DNA of 64,000 nt from Stappia sp. ES.058 (GTDB lineage: Bacteria > Pseudomonadota > Alphaproteobacteria > Rhizobiales > Stappiaceae). Both the position numbers and the translations under genes were made by a program. Of the stretch, positions 12,796 to 59,675 are shown one piece after another; positions within the stretch are counted from its first letter, which is position 1; the number at the start of each line of letters is the position of its first letter. Below the pieces are notes generated by a model. That model worked only from the letters and a program-made list of their open reading frames with translations, searched no databases and was not told the DNA's origin. The stretch is taken from the NCBI RefSeq assembly GCF_900105595.1, contig NZ_LT629784.1:372001-436000 (forward strand), in the 5' to 3' direction.

Positions 12796-13140
12796 ATGAT
12801 CGCCGTGATTTTCGAAGTCTGGCCGAAGGACGGTCACACGGGGGCGTATCTGGACATCGCCGCCGAGCTCAAGCCGTTGCTCGCCGACGTCGACGGGTTC
12901 ATATCCGTTGAGCGCTTCGAAAGCCTGACGGAGCCCGGCAAGCTTTTGTCCGTCTCCTTCTGGCGCGACGAGGACGCGCTCTCCGCCTGGCGCCACCAGG
13001 CCGAACACCGCATCGCGCAAGGCAAGGGCCGGCACACACATTTCGCCAACTATCGCCTCAGGGTCGCAAGCGTTTCGCGCGACTACGGCATGAACGAACG
13101 CGACGAGGCCCCGGCCGACAGCGTCGCGCTGCACGGCTGA
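12796..13140 (+). CDS. Antibiotic biosynthesis monooxygenase (ABM)-fold protein
   Basis: A 114-residue dimeric alpha-beta-barrel-type protein. Its first strand is MIAVIFEVWPKDG. It has the family pattern GFISVERFESLTEPGKLLSVSFW and SAWRHQAEHRIAQGKGR, with the conserved W-R-x-x-x-E-H stretch. Members range from quinol monooxygenases to heme-degrading and stress proteins, so no reaction is assigned. A strong Shine-Dalgarno (AAAGGAGATCC) fixes the start at ATG 12796. It lies 95 bp after the second RhiA-like gene and ends convergently with the ankyrin gene region. Confidence 0.8.
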   Translation: MIAVIFEVWPKDGHTGAYLDIAAELKPLLADVDGFISVERFESLTEPGKLLSVSFWRDEDALSAWRHQAEHRIAQGKGRHTHFANYRLRVASVSRDYGMNERDEAPADSVALHG

Positions 13141-13144
13141 GCGC

Positions 13145-13225
13145 TCACCACCGGCGGCGGAACGGCCCGTCGAAGCCATGGGCGTAGACCGGCAGGTCCC
13201 CGGCCAGCGGTTCGTCGTCGGTCAT
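13145..13225 (-). CDS. Possible 26-residue ORF downstream of the ankyrin gene
   Basis: This short frame encodes MTDDEPLAGDLPVYAHGFDG and ends RRRW, starting 14 bases past the ankyrin stop codon on the same strand. The residue composition looks protein-like, but no Shine-Dalgarno is clear and I recognise no family. It may be a remnant of a longer gene or chance. Confidence 0.2.
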   Translation of the reverse strand: MTDDEPLAGDLPVYAHGFDGPFRRRW

Positions 13226-13238
13226 GTCGATCATGCCA

Positions 13239-16200
13239 TCATGCGGGTGGTGTTGCGCCGGCCTCCAGAAGCAGCGCGACGCAATCTTCGTGGTCCCGAT
13301 GCAACGCCAGGACGAGGGGAGAAATGCCGTCGGTTGGATGAGTGGCGTTCGGATCGGCGTTGGCCTCGAGCAGAAGCGTGACGCAGTCGGCGTGGCCGTT
13401 CAGCGCGGCCAAGTGGAGCGGGAAGGTGCCGGTGTTCGGGTCTGTGGCGTTCGGATCGGCGTTGGCCTCGAGCAGACGCCTGACGCAGTCTGTGTGGCCG
13501 TTCAGCGCGGTCATGAGGAGCGGGAAGGTGCCGTTCTGCTGATTGACGTTGTTCGGATCGGCTTTGGCCTCGAGCAGATGCGCGACGCAGTCCGCGTGGC
13601 CGTTCTGTGCGGCCATGAGGAGCGGGAAGGTGCCGGTGTTCGGGTCTGTGGCGTTCGGATCGGCTTTGGCCTCGAGCAGATGCGCGACGCAGTCCGCGTG
13701 GCCCTCCTGCGCGGCCATGAGGAGCGGGAAGGTGCCGTCGACCGGATCGATGGCGTTCGGATCGGCACTGGCCTCGAGCAGACGCCTGACGCAATCTGCG
13801 TGGCCGTTCTGCGCGGCGAAGCCGAGCGGGAAGGTGCCGGTGTTCGGGTCTGTGGCGTTCGGATCGGCTTTGGCCTCGAGCAGATGCGCGACGCAGTCGG
13901 CGTGGCCCTCCTGCGCGGCCATGAGGAGCGGGAAGTTGCCGGTGTTCGGGTTTCTGGCGTTCGGATCGGCCTTGGCCTCGAGCAGCAGCGCGACGCAGTC
14001 TGCGTGGCCCTCCTGCGCGGCCATGAGGAGCGGGAAGGTGCCGTCGACCGGATCGATGGCGTTCGGATCGGCGTTGGCCTCGAGCAGAAGCGTGACGCAG
14101 TCTGCGTGGCCGTTCTGCGCGGCCATGAGGAGCGGGAAGGTGCCGGTGTTCTGGTTTCTGGCGTTCGGATCGGCGTTGGCCCCAAGCAGATGCGCGACGC
14201 AGTCTGCGTGGCCATTTTTTGCGGCCATGAGGAGCGGGTAGGTGCCGGTGTTCGGGTCTGTGGCGTTCGGATCGGCGTTGGCCTCGAGCAGCAGCCTGAC
14301 GCAGTCCGCGTGGCCGTTCTGCGCGGCGAAGCCGAGCGGGAAGGTGCCGTCGACCGGATCGATGGCGTTCGGATCGGCACTGGCCTCGAGCAGACGCCTG
14401 ACGCAATCTGCGTGGCCGTTCTGCGCGGCTTGGAGGAGCGGGAAGGTGCCGTCGGTTGGATGAGTGGCGTTCGGATCGGCTTTGGCCTCGAGCAGACGCC
14501 TGACGCAGTCTGCGTGGCCCTCCTGCGCGGCCATGAGGAGCGGGAAGTTGCCGGTGTTCGGGTTTGTGGCGTTCGGGTTTGTGGCGTTCGGATCGGCCTT
14601 GGCCTCGAGCAGACGCCTGACGCAGTCTGTGTGGCCGTTCTGTGCGGCCATGAGGAGCGGGAAGGTGCCGGTGTTCGGGTTTCTGGCGTTCGGATCGGCC
14701 TTGGCCTCGAGCAGCAGCCTGACGCAGTCTGCGTGGCCCTCCTGCGCGGCGAAGCCGAGCGGGAAGGTCCCGTTGGTTGGATGAGTGGCGTTCGGATCGG
14801 CCTTGGCCTCGAGCAGCAGCCTGACGCAGTCTGCGTGGCCCTCCTGCGCGGCCATGAGGAGCGGGAAGGTGCCGTCGGTTGGATGAGTGGCGTTCGGATC
14901 GGCCTTGGCCTCGAGCAGCAGCGCGACGCAGTCCGCGTGGCCCTCCTGCGCGGCGAAAAGGAGCGGGAAGGCGCCGTTGCTATCGTTGCGATTGACGTCC
15001 GCGCCGCCCGCAAGCGCTGCGGCAAGCAGGCCGTCCAGTCCGTAATAGGCGGCGAGGTTCGTATCGAACCCGCTGTAATCGGCATCCGGGAAACGCACTG
15101 CCGCGAGCGCCTGTGTCACCGGGTTGGTTGAAAAGTCGTCCCTGAGACGGATCAGGAAAGCGGTCAGCATGTCGGGGTCGAGGGTCGCCGCATGGCGGAT
15201 GAGCGTCTCGACGCGCGCCAGCGCATCGGCGCGTTTGTCGGGTTTCGACACATCCCGCAGACACCAGAGCACCATATATTCGCCGAGAAGGTCCGGCTCG
15301 CGCGCCGGGAAGGTGGCGTCGCCGTCCGGATCGAGCGCGGCCGGCGGGAAGCCGAGCAGGCAAAAGGCATCGTGTCCCGCCGCGCCCCGCAGGTCGCCAT
15401 AGGTCGCCGCAAGCTCCCTGGTTGCGGCGTCGCTTTGTCCCGGACCTTCGAACAGTCTCTGCGCGTCGATGCCGCCGATCATGGTGGCGAGACAGGCGAG
15501 GTTACCGGCCCGCGCCGACATCTCCTTCGGCCGGTCGGGGGCATCGGGGTGGCGCGGCCAGTTCTTCGCCCGTTCGTTGTCGAAGGTTTTTCCAAGAAGC
15601 GTTGCGATATCCGTTTCAAGCGCAAGGGGCGCGCCATCGACAGGCTCTTCGCCGATCAGGCTCGCGAACATTATCGCAAACAAAGGCCGCCAGGCCTTGG
15701 AGCTTTTGGCCGGATCGGAGTGGCGACCCCGCAGGGTGTCGAGCAGCCGCGTTTCCAGGGACCGATCGAGCGGCGGCTTTCCGGCGAATGCGCGCCAGGA
15801 ATTGGCGACCGCGATCATTTCGTCCTCGGCGAGGGCGTCGACGACCAGCGGACCGGCGGGAGCGGTGCACGTTTCCTTGCGATGAACGCTCGCTTGCAAG
15901 CGGATGGATTGATCCGCATCGGCGTTCGCCGACCGCAGCCAGTTGAAGCCGCCTTTCGCGCGCTCATCGAAGGCATAGCCGACGCGCTCCAGCACGAGGA
16001 GCCGCACCGGGGCGTCGAGCTGCGGATTGGCGGACCCATCTGCCCGCCCGGCGAGCGCCGTGATCGCCTTGACCACGTTTGCCGCCTTCTGCGGCGCGGC
16101 GGCATAATCCACGATGCAAAGCGTCGGCACCTCAAAGGGTTCCCTTTTCCAGTCGAAGTTTTCAAGCTCCTCTGCATCGATGAAGCCTGCGTCCCAGGCG

Positions 16201-17306
16201 GCGTCCAGTTCGTCGACGAGGTGCAGCGCGAGCCGGCTCTTGCCCTGACCGCCCTCTCCGGCGATCTGCCACCAGGCGAAATCCGCGTCGCTTTCCAGAA
16301 AATCCCGGAGCTGCGCCAGCTCCCGCTCACGGCCCACGACCCGCGTGCTCCTTTGGCGAAACGTCAGTTGCACGAAGGACGATTTGTCGGTCTCGATCGC
16401 GCGCTTGCGGTCGAGCGCCAGCCGGCCGCGCGCGGCAAGGCGTTGATCGGTGCGTTGCAAGAGATCCCGTATGAAAGCGGTATCTTGCTCCACCCGTGCC
16501 ACGGAGAGCGCAATGCCGTCGATATCGTTGGCGCGCTTGTCCAGTTCGGCAAGCGACGCCTGCACGTTGTCGTCGCTCTTCGCCAGCATCTCGCGGACCT
16601 CCTGCAGGCCGCTTCTGATCTCGCCGCCGACACGGTGGTCGAAGGCGCGCGCCGCCTCCCTGTGGTCGCGGCTTTTCAGCCGTTCGATGAAGCTGTCGAG
16701 CACGCGCTTGCCGAAGCGGTTGAGACCGTCCGCATCGCTGCGGTCCAGTTGCGTGCGGGCCGCTTCGGGAAGCCCTTCGCCGTCGCGCGCCTCCAGCGTT
16801 TCGCGGAAGGCGGTTGCGAGCGTGGCGCAGGTGGTCTTCAACTCCGCCGTGGCGACGGTCGCCTCCGGGACCGCCGCGACGACGCGGGTCATGATCTCTT
16901 CGCCGACGACGGTCTCGAACGGCGTCGTCCTGTCCTCCGCGTCCCGCCCGCGCGCCTCGATGAAGAGACGGACGCGCGCGTCGAACGCCGCCAGATCGGA
17001 CGGGTCGGCCTGCGACAGCTCGTGCTCGGGAACGGCGTTCAGCCGGGCGAGCCAGTCGAGCCCGGCATCGCGAAGCGACAGCGTCAGCAGCCGTTGCAGA
17101 TCGTGGTTGGTGCCTGGTTCAAGCGGCGCCTGACGGAGGGATTCCGACAGGCGTCCGGCGATCCTTTGCCGAACCTGCGTTGCGCGGGTGACAAGGGCCG
17201 CTCCGGACCGGGTCTTCGCGCAGACCGACACGACCTGTCCTGTCGCCCAACTCGTTGCAACCCCCAATGCCCAGGTCCCGACACCCAGGGTCACCGGATC
17301 CGCCAT
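13239..17306 (-). CDS. Large P-loop (STAND-like) NTPase with C-terminal ankyrin-repeat array
   Basis: A 1355-residue protein (numbering below counts from a GTG two codons upstream). Residues 5-30 form a hydrophobic N-terminal helix; 40-320 are helical and coiled-coil-like. An NTPase domain follows with Walker A GEGGQGKS (352-359), a probable Walker B TLCIVDYA (397-404), a downstream VRLLVLER strand, and EPDLLGEYMVL near 672-682, as in NACHT/STAND-type ATPases. From about 755 to the end are ankyrin repeats: a diverged first unit, 16 units of 34 residues (ADCVALLLEAKADPNA... type) and a capping half-unit. No signal peptide is seen. The overall plan, a switch ATPase plus a repeat sensor, resembles bacterial conflict or signalling ATPases. 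A defence role is inference. ATG 17306 is preferred (AAGGGG upstream). Confidence 0.85.
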   Translation of the reverse strand: MADPVTLGVGTWALGVATSWATGQVVSVCAKTRSGAALVTRATQVRQRIAGRLSESLRQAPLEPGTNHDLQRLLTLSLRDAGLDWLARLNAVPEHELSQADPSDLAAFDARVRLFIEARGRDAEDRTTPFETVVGEEIMTRVVAAVPEATVATAELKTTCATLATAFRETLEARDGEGLPEAARTQLDRSDADGLNRFGKRVLDSFIERLKSRDHREAARAFDHRVGGEIRSGLQEVREMLAKSDDNVQASLAELDKRANDIDGIALSVARVEQDTAFIRDLLQRTDQRLAARGRLALDRKRAIETDKSSFVQLTFRQRSTRVVGRERELAQLRDFLESDADFAWWQIAGEGGQGKSRLALHLVDELDAAWDAGFIDAEELENFDWKREPFEVPTLCIVDYAAAPQKAANVVKAITALAGRADGSANPQLDAPVRLLVLERVGYAFDERAKGGFNWLRSANADADQSIRLQASVHRKETCTAPAGPLVVDALAEDEMIAVANSWRAFAGKPPLDRSLETRLLDTLRGRHSDPAKSSKAWRPLFAIMFASLIGEEPVDGAPLALETDIATLLGKTFDNERAKNWPRHPDAPDRPKEMSARAGNLACLATMIGGIDAQRLFEGPGQSDAATRELAATYGDLRGAAGHDAFCLLGFPPAALDPDGDATFPAREPDLLGEYMVLWCLRDVSKPDKRADALARVETLIRHAATLDPDMLTAFLIRLRDDFSTNPVTQALAAVRFPDADYSGFDTNLAAYYGLDGLLAAALAGGADVNRNDSNGAFPLLFAAQEGHADCVALLLEAKADPNATHPTDGTFPLLMAAQEGHADCVRLLLEAKADPNATHPTNGTFPLGFAAQEGHADCVRLLLEAKADPNARNPNTGTFPLLMAAQNGHTDCVRRLLEAKADPNATNPNATNPNTGNFPLLMAAQEGHADCVRRLLEAKADPNATHPTDGTFPLLQAAQNGHADCVRRLLEASADPNAIDPVDGTFPLGFAAQNGHADCVRLLLEANADPNATDPNTGTYPLLMAAKNGHADCVAHLLGANADPNARNQNTGTFPLLMAAQNGHADCVTLLLEANADPNAIDPVDGTFPLLMAAQEGHADCVALLLEAKADPNARNPNTGNFPLLMAAQEGHADCVAHLLEAKADPNATDPNTGTFPLGFAAQNGHADCVRRLLEASADPNAIDPVDGTFPLLMAAQEGHADCVAHLLEAKADPNATDPNTGTFPLLMAAQNGHADCVAHLLEAKADPNNVNQQNGTFPLLMTALNGHTDCVRRLLEANADPNATDPNTGTFPLHLAALNGHADCVTLLLEANADPNATHPTDGISPLVLALHRDHEDCVALLLEAGATPPA
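13290..14936 (-). repeat. Tandem 102-bp repeats encoding 16 ankyrin units
   Basis: Sixteen consecutive 102-bp units (34 codons) with the same core, interrupted only by a 15-bp internal duplication in the fourth unit (NATNP twice). Units differ mainly at a few repeat-face positions (K/N/S before ADPN; THPT, RNPN, IDPV or TDPN; LLM, LGF or LLQ). Blocks recur: roughly 95 bp around 13722-13816 is identical to DNA 612 bp away (six units), which points to recent segmental duplication or gene conversion. No spacers separate the units, so it is not a CRISPR array. Confidence 0.95.
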
Positions 17307-17406
17307 GCCCACCCCTTTTCCGCAATGCCCGAAGGCAGTCTGGAGAAGGCGGATCGGAAGTTCAATCCCTGAATGTCGCTGGCAATCGGTGCAACTTTTT
17401 CCCCGT

Positions 17407-18258
17407 TCAGCGCTCGGGAAGCACCAGCACCGTCGTTTCGGCTGGAAGCGACGCGCGGCTTGCGATCAGCAGCGGCGTGTCGCTCAAGGTCAGCGCATAG
17501 CCTTCGCCCACCATGCGGGCGGTGAAGCTCTCCAGCGAGCCGTAGGTGTAGGCATGCATCGGGATGATGAGGCGCGGCGACACGGCCTCGAGCACCTCGA
17601 CCATGCTGTCGAGGCGCAGCGTCGAGGCATTGTCGACGGGGGCGAAGACGATGTCGATGGTGCCGAGCCGGGCGAGGTCGTTTTGCGTGAGGCGATGGTG
17701 CAGATGGCCCAGATGGGCAATGCACAGGTCGGCGACCTCGAAGACGAAGATCGAGTTGCCGAGCCGTCGGGTCTCGCCGTTCCAGCCGCGGATGTTGGTC
17801 TGGATGTTGCGGATGCGCACGTCGTCGACCAGCAGATCGTGGTCCATCGGCCCGCCGTCCGGGTTCCAGCCGAGCAGGACGTGTTCGATCCCCGGATCCG
17901 GGTTCATGGTGAAATGCGTGCCATGCGCGCCGTTCATCGTCACGATGCGCGGCAGGCGCTCCGGCTTGTGGATGGCGTTGTAGTCGGTGGCGATGCGCAC
18001 GCCCATCGGCGTCTCGATCTCGAAGGTGGCATGTCCGATGTAGCGGATCGCGACCTGATCGCGGGCAAGGGCTGTCGGCTGGACCAGCGCGGCGCGCTGC
18101 ACGAGGGGCGGCGGCGCGCGCCAGGCATCGGCGAGGATCTGGCAGGAGGCCTGTGCCGCGCCGGTCAGGCCCGCCAGCGCGAGGGCGCTCGCGCCGAGCC
18201 GGGTCAACATGTGCCGGAACCCGTGTCGTCCGGTATCGCGTCGTGATGAAACCGCCAT
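17407..18258 (-). CDS. Exported metallo-beta-lactamase-fold hydrolase
   Basis: A 283-residue protein with a long basic N-terminus followed by a hydrophobic signal segment (LGASALALAGLTGAAQA). The mature part begins with the UlaG/YtnP-like strand VAIRYIGHATFEIETPMGVR, contains HLGHLHHRL, and ends with LIIPMHAYTYGS, all typical of metal-dependent MBL-fold hydrolases. The substrate cannot be predicted. It lies 47 bp from the patatin gene upstream and about 100 bp before the ankyrin gene, all on the minus strand, so co-transcription is possible. Confidence 0.82.
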   Translation of the reverse strand: MAVSSRRDTGRHGFRHMLTRLGASALALAGLTGAAQASCQILADAWRAPPPLVQRAALVQPTALARDQVAIRYIGHATFEIETPMGVRIATDYNAIHKPERLPRIVTMNGAHGTHFTMNPDPGIEHVLLGWNPDGGPMDHDLLVDDVRIRNIQTNIRGWNGETRRLGNSIFVFEVADLCIAHLGHLHHRLTQNDLARLGTIDIVFAPVDNASTLRLDSMVEVLEAVSPRLIIPMHAYTYGSLESFTARMVGEGYALTLSDTPLLIASRASLPAETTVLVLPER

Positions 18259-33720: not shown

Positions 33721-34802
33721 GCGGCAGTTTCGACCGGCAGGACGCCTTTTCCGGCACCAAGGCGGTGCCCGACGCGCTCGCCATCGACGCGGAGCGGCTT
33801 GCCGGCTGGCTGGCCGATCATGTGCCGGGTTTTGCCGGTCGCCTGGAGGTCCGCCAGTTCAAGGGCGGGCAGTCGAACCCGACCTATCTGCTGGAAACGC
33901 CGGCCGCGTCCTTCGTGCTCAGGCGCAAGCCGCCGGGCGCCCTGCTCCCCTCCGCCCATGCGGTCGACCGCGAATACAAGGTGATGAAGGCGCTGGGCGA
34001 AGCGGGCTTTCCCGTGCCGCGCGTTCTGGGGCACGAGACCGACGCGGACGTGATCGGCACCGAGTTCTATGTGATGGACAAGGTTGAGGGGCGGATCTTC
34101 TGGGATCCCGCAATGCCGGACGCCACCAGGGGAGAGCGCGCCGCCGTCTACGGCGCGATGAACGCCACGCTGGCACGGCTCCACGGCTACGATCCGCAGG
34201 TGCTGGGGCTTGGCGACTACGGCAAGCCCGAGGGCTATGTCGCGCGCCAGATCGCGCGCTGGTCGAAACAGTATCGCGCGTCCGAGACTGAAACGATCGC
34301 CGAGATGGACCGGCTGATCGACTGGCTGCCGACGCGCCTGCCCGGGGCGCAGCCCGCGCGCGTGGTGCATGGCGACTTCCGCCTCGACAATCTGATCATT
34401 GCGCCGGAGACGCCCGAGGTCGCCGCCGTGCTCGACTGGGAACTGTCGACGCTGGGCGATCCGGTCGCCGATTTCACTTATCACTGCATGCAATGGGTGA
34501 TGCCGCAGGGCCCGGACGGGGCAGGGATCGGCACGCTCGCGGGCCGGGATCTCGAAGCGCTCGGGATACCAGCGCTTGCCGACTATATCGCGTCTTATGA
34601 GCGGGCGACGGGCTTTCCGGTCGCGAAGGATCTTGATTTCTTCTTCGCCTACAACTTCTTCCGCATCGCCGCGATCCTGCAAGGCATCGCCGGCCGCGTG
34701 CGCGACGGCACGGCGACGAATGAAAACGCGGAGCAAATGGCCAAACAGATCCGCCCGCTCGCGGAAACGGCCTGGGGCTTTGCGCGAAAAGCGGGGGCGT
34801 GA
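33717..34802 (+). CDS. APH-family phosphotransferase (ACAD10/11-like)
   Basis: A 361-residue aminoglycoside-phosphotransferase-fold kinase. It has the nucleotide-binding loop GGQSNPTYLLETPAASFVLRR, the catalytic loop VVHGDFRLDNLII and the metal Asp in VLDWELSTLGDPVADF. This is the group fused to acyl-CoA dehydrogenases in ACAD10/11, where it phosphorylates 4-hydroxyacyl-CoA; a hydroxyacid or acyl-CoA substrate is therefore more likely than an antibiotic. It starts at a GTG that overlaps the hydrolase stop (GTGA), so the two are coupled, which is odd for unrelated chemistries. Confidence 0.88.
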   Translation: MSGSFDRQDAFSGTKAVPDALAIDAERLAGWLADHVPGFAGRLEVRQFKGGQSNPTYLLETPAASFVLRRKPPGALLPSAHAVDREYKVMKALGEAGFPVPRVLGHETDADVIGTEFYVMDKVEGRIFWDPAMPDATRGERAAVYGAMNATLARLHGYDPQVLGLGDYGKPEGYVARQIARWSKQYRASETETIAEMDRLIDWLPTRLPGAQPARVVHGDFRLDNLIIAPETPEVAAVLDWELSTLGDPVADFTYHCMQWVMPQGPDGAGIGTLAGRDLEALGIPALADYIASYERATGFPVAKDLDFFFAYNFFRIAAILQGIAGRVRDGTATNENAEQMAKQIRPLAETAWGFARKAGA

Positions 34803-35149
34803 GGTTTTCTCGCCTCGAAGCGCTCTGATGTGTCGCCACGTGGTTGCATCCCGGCTTGGTGGCTAAAATGACGCCGGTGGTGGGGGCGTTTTTGCCTCTT
34901 TGTTTTCCTTGGCGAAATGAGTGGAGGGGAGGCCGATGAAATGAACCGCACCAGGTTTGCCGGAGGCTGATTGTGCGCGGGTCAGCATCATTAAGTGAGC
35001 GTTCGCGTCTTAGATCGGTATACTAGCTTTGCGGCATGGCTTGAAGATCGTAGTTAGGAAAGCAATGGCGAAATCGTAGGCCGTGCGCTTGGCTTGGTAA
35101 TTGCGCGACTTGTTAGCTGGGAACAGAAGAAGTATCGACAGTGGATCGA
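34803..35149. other. Left intergenic flank of the AT-richer island
   Basis: This stretch contains the left copy of a direct repeat (34822-34882) and then sequence that becomes visibly poorer in G and C from about 34985. No ORF with recognisable content is present. Short frames on the minus strand that read KTKRQKRPHHRRH come from a dispersed intergenic repeat. Confidence 0.6.
34822..34882. repeat. Direct repeat flanking the TA island, left copy
   Basis: It starts GCTCTGATGTGTCGCCACGT and matches 36227-36288 at about 47 of 60 positions, same orientation. The shared core includes GCCACGTGGT and GCATCCCGGCT. Confidence 0.7.
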
Positions 35150-35569
35150 TTAACTGTAGACAATATGATTGCAATCCAACCAAACGACATAAAAACAACT
35201 TCCGATGATAAATCCATGAACTCGACCGTGCTTGTTAACTGACACCGAAAATTGATATGGAGTGTATGATTGATATTGCTCGTGCAACTGGACGAAGCCA
35301 TCAGGACGTTTTGTTTCCTCCCACTTTATCGGATGGCTCCTAATCGACTTGCTTCTACTGCCTGTGAACTCGGAAATTTTCCATGAAGACAGGTTCCTAA
35401 GCCTGTCCATAAGCGCCTGTGTGTATCCGTCGCTGAACGTGGCCGGGCAAGCTTCTCCGTCAGTTGCATCAAAAAACTTGAAAGAAAATCTAAGAAGATC
35501 ATCGTCCGGCGTAGCGGTTTGTATACCAGATTTAGAAATATTCTTTTGATTATTTTTCTTAATTGCCAA
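35150..35569 (-). CDS. Probable toxin partner of the Panacea antitoxin
   Basis: About 139 residues. I recognise no named domain with certainty, but its blocks are well-formed: RFSFKFFDATDGEACPATF, ALMDRLRNLSSWKISEF, RSHPIKWEETKRPDGFVQLH, PYQFSVSVNKHGRVHGFIIG and CFYVVWLDCNHIVY. I recall similar small proteins beside DUF4065 genes. No ATG is suitable. The likely TTG start at 35569 overlaps the antitoxin stop region, and the frame stays open into the antitoxin to 35653. Codon use is AT-rich compared with neighbours. A toxin role is inferred from the pairing. The mechanism (RNase, or a replication or translation target) is unknown. Confidence 0.65.
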   Translation of the reverse strand: MAIKKNNQKNISKSGIQTATPDDDLLRFSFKFFDATDGEACPATFSDGYTQALMDRLRNLSSWKISEFTGSRSKSIRSHPIKWEETKRPDGFVQLHEQYQSYTPYQFSVSVNKHGRVHGFIIGSCFYVVWLDCNHIVYS

Positions 35570-36026
35570 CGCTCCGGTAGAAGTATTTAGTAATTTCTTT
35601 CGAAATGTAGTTATTGCATGGTTCGTCTTCAGCCAAATCGCCACGCGCATCAAGCCAAGGTTGCTCTTTATGGGTCATGATTTCTAGCGCAACGGCAGTC
35701 TCTGAACCAAACACGTCAACAACTTCATCAAGGTGTTTAACCATTTCAATTGGTAGATCAGGGCACTCAATCTCTGCATCAATTGGACGCCATTTGAAGT
35801 TTTTAAAGCGATGATATTGACTAAGCGCCACTGGCCCATGAACCCAAGCCTGAAACCGTTCGACCGTAATTTCTGTGTCGTACAAAGCGAGGTGCCACGC
35901 ATCGGAATAGTACATAAGCTTTTGAAGCTTCAGTGGCGTCAAAAGCTCTCCGCGCTCGCGGGACTCACTAATCAAGTAGTCCGCAAGCGTGAACGATGCC
36001 GGATATCTTTCGTCTTCATATGCCAT
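35559..36026 (-). CDS. Panacea-domain (DUF4065/SocA-like) antitoxin
   Basis: A 155-residue protein whose N-terminal half is the Panacea domain: TLADYLISESRERGELLTPL, KLQKLMYYSDAWHLALYD, ERFQAWVHGPVALSQYHRFK. This domain is found in proteolytic adaptors such as SocA and in many antitoxins that neutralise unrelated toxins. It is the upstream gene of a two-gene minus-strand unit and overlaps the putative toxin gene. Base composition is visibly AT-richer than the flanks, in keeping with horizontal acquisition. Confidence 0.88.
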   Translation of the reverse strand: MAYEDERYPASFTLADYLISESRERGELLTPLKLQKLMYYSDAWHLALYDTEITVERFQAWVHGPVALSQYHRFKNFKWRPIDAEIECPDLPIEMVKHLDEVVDVFGSETAVALEIMTHKEQPWLDARGDLAEDEPCNNYISKEITKYFYRSVGN

Positions 36027-36334
36027 AACGACAATCTACTCGCACAATTTGGAGAAAAAGTGAATTGTGAATTTAGGTTGAGATCAATCGCCACAACTGC
36101 AATCCGGTCCTATCCCGACCAGAAACAATGGCTCCTGTTTTCGCAGTCCCCTAGAACGCGTGACACCTTGTTCGTGAGCTTCTTTAAGTGCGTATGGTCG
36201 CTCAAATTGTCTCCCCGCCACGATGTGCTCTGATGGGCGGCCACGTGGTCGCATCCCGGCTCGGGGGCCGGGGTGACGTCGGCGGGTGTGATGCTCTCTG
36301 ACTACATCACCAGCGTATACGGTTCTCGCCCCGC
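36027..36334. other. Right intergenic flank of the island
   Basis: This is the promoter side of the antitoxin gene, followed by the right direct repeat (36227-36288) and then the 3' end of tldD, which reads toward it. Base composition returns to GC-rich at about 36215, exactly at the repeat. No gene is seen. Confidence 0.6.
36227..36288. repeat. Direct repeat flanking the TA island, right copy
   Basis: It starts GCTCTGATGGGCGGCCACGT and pairs with 34822-34882. The sharp change of base composition coincides with both copies. Confidence 0.7.
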
Positions 36335-37759
36335 TCACACAGCCGTGCCGCCGACCGTCATCTTGTTGATCCGCAGCGACGGCTGGCCGACGCCGACGGG
36401 GACGCCCTGGCCCTGTTTGCCGCAGGTGCCGATGCCCGGATCGAGCGCCATGTCGTTTCCGACCGCTGCAATGCGGGTCATCGCCTCCGGCCCGTTGCCG
36501 ATCAGCATGGCGCCCTTGATCGGCGCGCCGATCCGGCCGCCCTCGATCCTGTAGGCCTCCGTGCAGGAGAAGACGAACTTGCCGGAGGTGATGTCGACCT
36601 GGCCGCCGCCGAAGGAGACCGCATAAATCCCGTCCTTGACGCCTTCCAGGATTTCGCCCGGATCGCGGTCGCCGGCGAGCATGATCGTGTTGGTCATGCG
36701 CGGCATCGGGATATGGGCGAAGGACTGGCGCCGGCCGTTGCCGGTCGAGGTCGCGCCCATTAGCCGGGCGTTTTGCCGGTCCTGCATGTAGCCGGTGAGA
36801 ATGCCGTCCTCGATCAGCACGGTGCGGCTCGTCGGCGTGCCCTCGTCGTCGATGGAGAGCGAGCCGCGCCGGCCGCCGATGGTGCCGTCGTCGACGATGG
36901 TGACGCCCTTGGAAGCGACGCGCTGGCCCATCAGGCCGGCGAAGGCGGAGGTCTTCTTGCGGTTGAAGTCGCCCTCGAGCCCGTGGCCGACGGCCTCGTG
37001 CAGCAGGATGCCGGGCCAGCCGTTACCGAGCACCACGTCGAAACTTCCGGCCGGCGCCGGGATCGCCTCCAGATTGACCAGCGCCTGGCGCAGCGCCTCG
37101 TCGACGGCATGTTTCCAGCTTTGCTCCGTCACATAGGCGCCGACGCTGTCGCGCCCGCCGAAGCCGTAGGAGCCGGATTCCTGGCGCGTGCCGTCGCCGG
37201 CGACGACCGAGACGTTGAAGCGCACCAGCGGGCGGATGTCGCGCACCCGGTGGCCGTCGGCGCGCAGGATGTCGACCACCTGCCAGGAAGAGGCGAGCGA
37301 GACCGAGACCTGCCGCACCTTGGGATCGCGGGCGCGGGCATAGGCGTCGACGGTCTGCATCAGGGCGACCTTGTCGGCGAAGTCGGGCTGCGCCAGCGGG
37401 TTGACGTCGCTGTAAAGCTTCGCGTTTGTGCGCTGCGGCGCGGCCGCATAGGTGCCGGAATGCCCCGAGGCAACGGCCCTGACGGCATCCGCTGCGCGCG
37501 AAAGCGCGGCCTGCGAGATCTCGCCCGAATGGGCGTAGCCGGCGGCTTCGCCCGCCACCGCGCGCAGGCCGAAGCCCTGCGAGGTGTCGTAATTCGCGGC
37601 CTTGAGCCGTCCGTTGTCGAACACAAGGCTTTCCGACTGGCGATATTCCAGAAACAGTTCGCCGTCGTCGGCGCCCGTGAGCGCCTCGAAAAGCATGGCG
37701 CGGGCGGTGGCTTCGCCGAGATCTCCGGTCGCGAGCAGGTCGATGGCGGTGTCGGTCAT
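36335..37759 (-). CDS. tldD: Metalloprotease TldD
   Basis: A 474-residue catalytic subunit of the TldD/TldE protease. The zinc motif is HEAVGHGLEGD (HExxxH) in VLGNGWPGILLHEAVGHGLE, followed by RRGSLSIDDEGTPTSRTVLI, GYMQDRQNARLMGATSTGNG and the C-terminal GIGTCGKQGQGVPVGVGQP. The start is ATG 37759 (MTDTAIDLLATGDL); an upstream extension from 37810 is not needed. Its partner pmbA is at 27579-28922. Confidence 0.95.
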   Translation of the reverse strand: MTDTAIDLLATGDLGEATARAMLFEALTGADDGELFLEYRQSESLVFDNGRLKAANYDTSQGFGLRAVAGEAAGYAHSGEISQAALSRAADAVRAVASGHSGTYAAAPQRTNAKLYSDVNPLAQPDFADKVALMQTVDAYARARDPKVRQVSVSLASSWQVVDILRADGHRVRDIRPLVRFNVSVVAGDGTRQESGSYGFGGRDSVGAYVTEQSWKHAVDEALRQALVNLEAIPAPAGSFDVVLGNGWPGILLHEAVGHGLEGDFNRKKTSAFAGLMGQRVASKGVTIVDDGTIGGRRGSLSIDDEGTPTSRTVLIEDGILTGYMQDRQNARLMGATSTGNGRRQSFAHIPMPRMTNTIMLAGDRDPGEILEGVKDGIYAVSFGGGQVDITSGKFVFSCTEAYRIEGGRIGAPIKGAMLIGNGPEAMTRIAAVGNDMALDPGIGTCGKQGQGVPVGVGQPSLRINKMTVGGTAV

Positions 37760-59363: not shown

Positions 59364-59460
59364 GACTGGACGTGACTGACGCGGCGTTTTCGTTGTGCGC
59401 CGCAGGGTTTCCCCGCACCGGGCCGGTCGAAGGACCATCCCTTGGGGACAATCCGAAACG

Positions 59461-59675
59461 ACTTGCGGGAGAGGTCGGCGTAGGGCGCCGGCGCCGAAGG
59501 AGCAACCGCCCCGGAAACTCTCAGGCAAAAGGACCGCCGGTCGAGCAACGCTCTGGAAAGCAGGACGCGCAAGCCGAAAGGCATGCTCGCCCTCACCGAA
59601 GGAGTAACCGCCCTCATCAAGGCGCGCCATCCGTGCGCGGGCGGGAAATCTCTCAGGTCGTCGGGACAGAGGGGG
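59461..59675 (+). ncRNA. Tandem glycine riboswitch
   Basis: Two aptamers in series. The first has CGGGAGAGG, GCCGAAGGAGCAACCGCC and ACTCTCAGGCAAAAGGACCG (to about 59535). The second has the matching GCTCTGGAAAGCAGG, CACCGAAGGAGTAACCGCC and AATCTCTCAGGTCGTCGGGA (to about 59672). The ACC-GAAGGAG and CTCTCAGG elements are those of the conserved glycine-binding core. It lies directly before gcvT and should switch on the glycine-cleavage genes when glycine is plentiful. Confidence 0.93.

Follow-up and report, generated by a model that had tools for sequence, protein, structure and literature searches.

A gene on the minus strand of Stappia sp. ES.058, within a 64,000-nucleotide stretch of contig NZ_LT629784.1 (positions 372,001 to 436,000; the whole stretch is called the window here), is on the reading that we moderately favour a horizontally acquired NLR-like receptor of the STAND class, in which an ankyrin array would sense an invader. 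An anti-phage role is probable, and the receptor is possibly crippled in this copy. The initial annotation had described a P-loop ATPase fused to an amplified ankyrin array as a candidate sensor, and the STAND-type assignment is supported by sequence motifs and structural matches. It had overlooked that a piece of a C-terminal domain persists out of frame at 13145-13249, and that the locus is a single-gene insertion.

Gene layout and STAND assignment

The open reading frame (ORF) at 13239-17312 on the minus strand is open over 1357 codons from GTG, or 1355 codons from the ATG at 17306. Its coding score of 307 is the highest of the gene call in the window, and its GC content at third codon positions (0.82) is similar to that of neighbour genes. 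The predicted model and Pfam together give a layout of helical residues 1-295, a P-loop NTPase with helical parts at 315-745 and ankyrin repeats from about residue 749 onward. The parts are as follows.

13239 to 17306, minus strand: STAND-ankyrin gene, 1355 residues from ATG 17306 (alternative start GTG 17312)
16422 to 17306, minus strand: N-terminal helical region, residues 1-295, putative effector (AlphaFold2 model)
15627 to 16364, minus strand: core of the P-loop NTPase with the helices after it, residues 315-560 (Walker A, Walker B LCIVDYAA, LLVLER, WRPLF)
15072 to 15626, minus strand: helical stretch that follows the NTPase (residues 561-745) and contains a PDLLGE motif, within the NLRC4-aligned span
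13242 to 15062, minus strand: ankyrin region of 17 pattern-defined units, 16 of them full 34-residue units (Tandem Repeats Finder and Pfam; array core 13342-14976)

Another record of the same protein (P0024, 563 residues on a 5.6 kb contig) is shifted in frame after about residue 483, which may be an assembly error or a strain difference.

The Walker A motif, G350-EGGQGKSR, is invariant at G350, G353, G355, K356, S357 and R358 in a 22-row alignment, and the Walker B motif has the hydrophobic stretch and aspartate that, with Walker A, are expected of a P-loop NTPase of the STAND superfamily. A [W/G]RPL[FL] motif follows the NTPase core in 21 of the 22 rows, the remaining row having no letters there; we read it as a candidate equivalent of the GxP-type motif of STAND proteins. 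In a Foldseek search with the predicted model, the first 12 solved matches were plant resistosomes, SAMD9, a maltose-system regulator (complex 8bob, rank 10) and Apaf-1, all of which we take to be STAND or NLR-like proteins, and NLRC4 was aligned over 341 residues, the first and last being 299 and 756. On these structural matches, a STAND switch is a well supported assignment for the ATPase, with the limits given next.

Several observations weigh against the reading as an NLR-like defence receptor. The TM-scores normalised by the query are 0.18-0.23 for the STAND and NLR structures, VIA-align places general AAA+ proteins above NLRs, and a winged helix was not located by itself in the model. 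The predicted NACHT signature failed to appear in Pfam, where neither NACHT nor NB-ARC is among the families at E<=1; nSTAND_NTPase5 (PF25199) and nSTAND3 (PF20720) gave no match either, and no curated STAND family fits. A sequence search of the PDB with residues 1-761 returned no match. Finally, the association of the ATPase relatives with defence genes, which had been named as a possible support, is weak. When 93 of the 200 listed neighbour ORFs around the relatives were given to PADLOC (E<=1e-8), 19 models were matched, corresponding to 5 or 6 proteins, against 2 models and 1 or 2 proteins among the 47 other ORFs of the window. Twelve of the 19 models fell on a prophage methyltransferase (locus L019) and three on one protein of L022. 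A near full-length Upx match lies directly after the ATPase gene of L024, a gene that is broken into two ORFs, and a PDC-S66/bSEFIR match in L046 is separated from the ATPase gene by two genes; one or two of the matched proteins were not identified. The window protein itself gave no convincing PADLOC match outside its ankyrins, only a weak one to JetA (E 0.012).

Around the ATPase gene of L019 (Palleronia caenipelagi), PHROGs assigned transposition, ParB-like and tail-fibre genes, on a contig listed as viral in IMG/VR, and we read this region (L019:399-20853) as a Mu-like prophage. This ankyrin-STAND gene sits between the transposition genes and a DNA methyltransferase with a tail-fibre gene.

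An alternative, which we consider unlikely, is a STAND signalling protein outside defence, for example a MalT-like regulator or a factor of kin or self recognition. The presence of 8bob among the structural matches would suit such a role, as would the fact that clear defence neighbours were not found in the window, and proteins of non-self recognition are known among the fungal NLRs whose repeats behave in a comparable way (PMC4986451). On the other hand, the Pfam search found no DNA-binding domain in the window protein, and a patchy distribution together with prophage carriage fits defence better than a core regulator. The full-length protein is present in 1 of 14 genus genomes, with partial matches in two others, and the ATPase module (E<=1e-10) in 12 of 385 genomes of the class, including this one. 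The suggested comparison of repeat numbers in sister strains met no full-length homologue in 13 sister species, the two partial matches being to the ATPase. No housekeeping role turned up for the protein.

The N-terminal region

The AlphaFold2 model of residues 1-295 shows first helices, a helical bundle and a long helix at 249-292, with a predicted local distance difference test (pLDDT) below 50 at residues 1-22 and 31-35. As first remarked for the first half of the protein, no domain can be named here, the sole Pfam match having an E-value of 0.13. An N-terminal hydrophobic helix had also been proposed; its hydrophobicity is moderate, with a best 19-residue mean of 1.12 against a background median of 0.80 in 251 ORFs, 33% of which reach 1.2.

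The ankyrin array

Tandem Repeats Finder placed the array at 13342-14976 with a period of 102 and 15.9 copies (score 1992), and Pfam Ank_2 matched the protein at E 8.9e-153, so that chance can hardly account for the repeats. A pattern search resolved 17 units, namely 16 full units and a 29-residue end unit, with 5 extra residues after one unit. The earlier count of about 16 units of 34 residues and 102 bp thus stands, but the description of them as near-identical does not, since the 16 full units share a mean pairwise identity of 0.854 in DNA (range 0.745-0.980) and 0.770 in protein (range 0.618-0.971).

The proposal that differences between units sit mostly in repeat-face codons holds in broad terms, and variation appears concentrated on the presumed binding face. 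The variable columns of the 34-residue unit are 2, 6, 7, 10, 11, 18, 19, 24, 30, 31, 33 and 34, and nine of these twelve fall among the 16 columns of the beta-hairpin/inner-helix part (p 0.019), where the cut for a variable column was chosen after the data were seen and the structural columns were assigned by ourselves. At the six positions that are randomised when ankyrins are designed, mean entropy is 1.29, compared with an overall 0.54 (permutation p 0.0013). The pooled dN/dS between units is 0.91; for columns selected on their variability, pN (0.35) exceeds pS (0.29), a contrast that is circular and deserves little weight.

Relatives and exchangeable modules

A search with residues 1-760 found 22 related proteins; the seven named relatives found in genomes are, going by those names, from Alphaproteobacteria. 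Five (P0002-P0006) have the N-terminus, ATPase and ankyrins in common with the window protein, and ten (P0007-P0016) have the ATPase and ankyrins with different N-termini. The ATPase is also joined to a TIR domain (P0022), to an alpha/beta hydrolase (P0017 and P0023, and P0018 by its listed domains), to Sel1 repeats (P0021) and to TPR (P0019, and below cut-off in P0020). The relatives show an effector-switch-sensor layout with swappable effector (helical, TIR, hydrolase) and sensor (ankyrin, TPR, Sel1). The TIR and hydrolase fusions point to an intracellular switch, and they make it very improbable that the protein is an ankyrin effector that is secreted and acts on cells of eukaryotes; Dot/Icm Ank effectors are listed as similar by NCBIfam, but their scores are far below the cut-offs (e.g. 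154.0 vs 600), with the best stretches on the ankyrins.

The genome of the window holds a second, partial match, a member of 1117 residues (L039:9554-12907, C1 about 1197153-1200506). Its C-terminus consists of 11 TPR-like units of 46 residues, whose first 42 residues average 91% identity in DNA and 88% in protein. Its short N-terminus contains a VQIVGDGN motif, also found in L052, with GxGN variants in L047 and L051; these may be akin to amyloid signalling motifs. Another locus from this genus, L040, has a Sel1 array, and the prophage-borne gene of L019 has 11.8 copies of a 102-bp unit.

In-frame arrays, defined by a period of at least 90 that is divisible by 3 and at least 2.5 copies, were counted in 20 loci with the window excluded. 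Of the 20 ATPase genes, 7 have such an array; none of the 212 other ORFs there does, including the 35 of at least 500 residues (7 of 20 against 0 of 35, Fisher p 0.0004). In this sample contig ends truncate some of the genes, the ATPase genes are mutually related, and the search profile, built from ankyrin-bearing proteins, may favour ankyrin-bearing relatives.

The C-terminal domain and its remnant

Three relatives (P0003, P0004 and P0006) carry a domain of about 225 residues after the ankyrins, and in two loci (L041 and L050) this domain is encoded by a separate gene that overlaps the ATPase gene by 4 bp. The domain has no Pfam match, and its detection is new here. A profile of it found a single place in the genome of the window, directly past the stop of the ORF.

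13145 to 13249, minus strand: remnant of the C-terminal domain, its last about 35 residues and stop, one frame off the ORF end

The remnant corresponds to positions 191-225 of profile A5 (E 5.7e-8, also E 5.6e-9). Since only these last 35 positions remain, and out of frame, roughly 190 residues are missing from the domain in the window gene, a loss that appears to be recent. The loss need not be fatal, because P0005, whose N-terminus is of the same type, ends in ankyrins without the domain.

This loss raises the possibility that the window copy arrived whole and is now a decaying, drifting and non-working receptor, which we regard as a minority view. Most of the domain is gone, the frame is shifted at the junction, the genome has no second place that the profile matches, and record P0024 is shifted in frame as well. 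However, 1355 codons are still open with intact ATPase motifs, the domain is not obligatory as P0005 shows, and the difference in P0024 may come from assembly.

Across the class the domain is matched at E<=1e-5 in 22 of 385 genomes, including the window remnant and the L050 genome. That some relatives have it fused and others as an overlapping gene suggests that it is a real functional partner. Its predicted model (pLDDT 72.8, pTM 0.75) had no significant match among solved structures. More open frames with this domain (L056-L074) were seen in many genomes of the class, with up to three matches per genome, and some of them have a hydrophobic N-terminal segment as judged by eye.

Insertion locus and genomic context

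The gene lies between two convergent genes that adjoin in sister species; the flanking genes are named from a reading of their sequences.

13141 to 17405, no strand: single-gene insertion, approximate limits
12799 to 13140, plus strand: left flank, conserved ABM-like gene
17407 to 18255, minus strand: right flank, conserved MBL-fold-like gene

The right flank gene is found in 13 of 14 genus genomes, this one included. All 12 sister loci read are without the STAND gene, and in 10 of them the flank genes adjoin, with 15-48 bp between the matches; the left flank gene was not found in the other two. Because the sister loci lack the gene and mostly have adjoining flanks, the segment of about 4.26 kb in the window is an insertion of one gene. 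Neither junction region showed direct repeats within it.

Elsewhere in the window, positions 34800-36340 have a low GC content (about 0.54-0.55 in 2-kb steps) and contain ORFs of 155 and 167 residues, differing from the surroundings, and are possibly a small island. A glycine riboswitch aptamer lies at 59456-59546 (Rfam RF00504, 68.1 bits), upstream of a 428-residue ORF starting at 59583.

Proposed mechanism and meaning

We propose that the ankyrin array is the sensor and would bind a molecule of an invader, most likely a protein from a phage. This contact would free an autoinhibited NTPase and lead to nucleotide exchange and oligomerisation, and the oligomer would gather the N-terminal helices and coiled coils, resulting in growth stop or death of the infected cell, perhaps by disturbing a membrane. 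Duplication and homogenisation of the 102-bp units would diversify the array and change its binding face. Some intact relatives have the C-terminal domain attached or produce it from the next gene, and the window copy has lost it. The layout, the NTPase motifs, the STAND-like model, the array, the insertion and the domain loss are seen in the sequence or the model, and from these the oligomerisation, the ligand, the cell death and the membrane target are inferred.

We tentatively suggest, as a broader view that we hold less firmly than that of the receptor itself, that bacteria have in this ATPase family a counterpart to the fast-evolving fungal NLRs. Repeats of any type in the family (ankyrin, TPR, Sel1) would be duplicated and homogenised time and again at the DNA level for new sensor specificities, and a portable C-terminal partner domain outside Pfam, used in cis or in trans, would be a further part of the receptor. 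An ATPase coupled to DNA-amplified arrays of several repeat types offers a directly testable system for sensor evolution. NLR-like proteins of bacteria are known, while in our view the way in which they gain new sensor specificities is largely open outside the retroelement-diversified cases. Retroelement-diversified sensors exist among these proteins (PMC10907252).

Comparison with known systems

Among curated STAND families, nSTAND_NTPase5 (PF25199) matched two relatives weakly (P0020 E 6.5e-6, L052 E 7.1e-6) and nSTAND3 (PF20720) one (P0021 E 0.0014), all below the curated cut-offs. The plant NLR resistosomes (NRC2/3/4, Roq1, 6j5t/6j6i) and Apaf-1 are the best solved Foldseek matches of the model, but they differ from the window protein in repeats and effectors and show no sequence match. 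With Avs and the bacterial NLR-related NACHT proteins (PMC10907252, PMC12169576), the window protein shares an N-terminal effector position, a central STAND NTPase and a C-terminal superstructure-forming sensor. Unlike those proteins, its NTPase is neither NACHT nor a named nSTAND by Pfam, and it combines an ankyrin-array sensor with an unnamed helical N-terminal region, features known here from sequence and model. For the fungal NLRs with highly conserved ANK, TPR or WD repeats (PMC4986451), the criterion was that units be more than 85% identical in protein across a minimum of 100 residues. The window array, from a bacterial host, falls below this criterion with a mean of 77%, its best pair reaching 0.97, but it resembles the fungal ankyrins described there in having internally similar units of 33-34 residues whose variable positions lie mainly in the inner helix and beta-hairpin.
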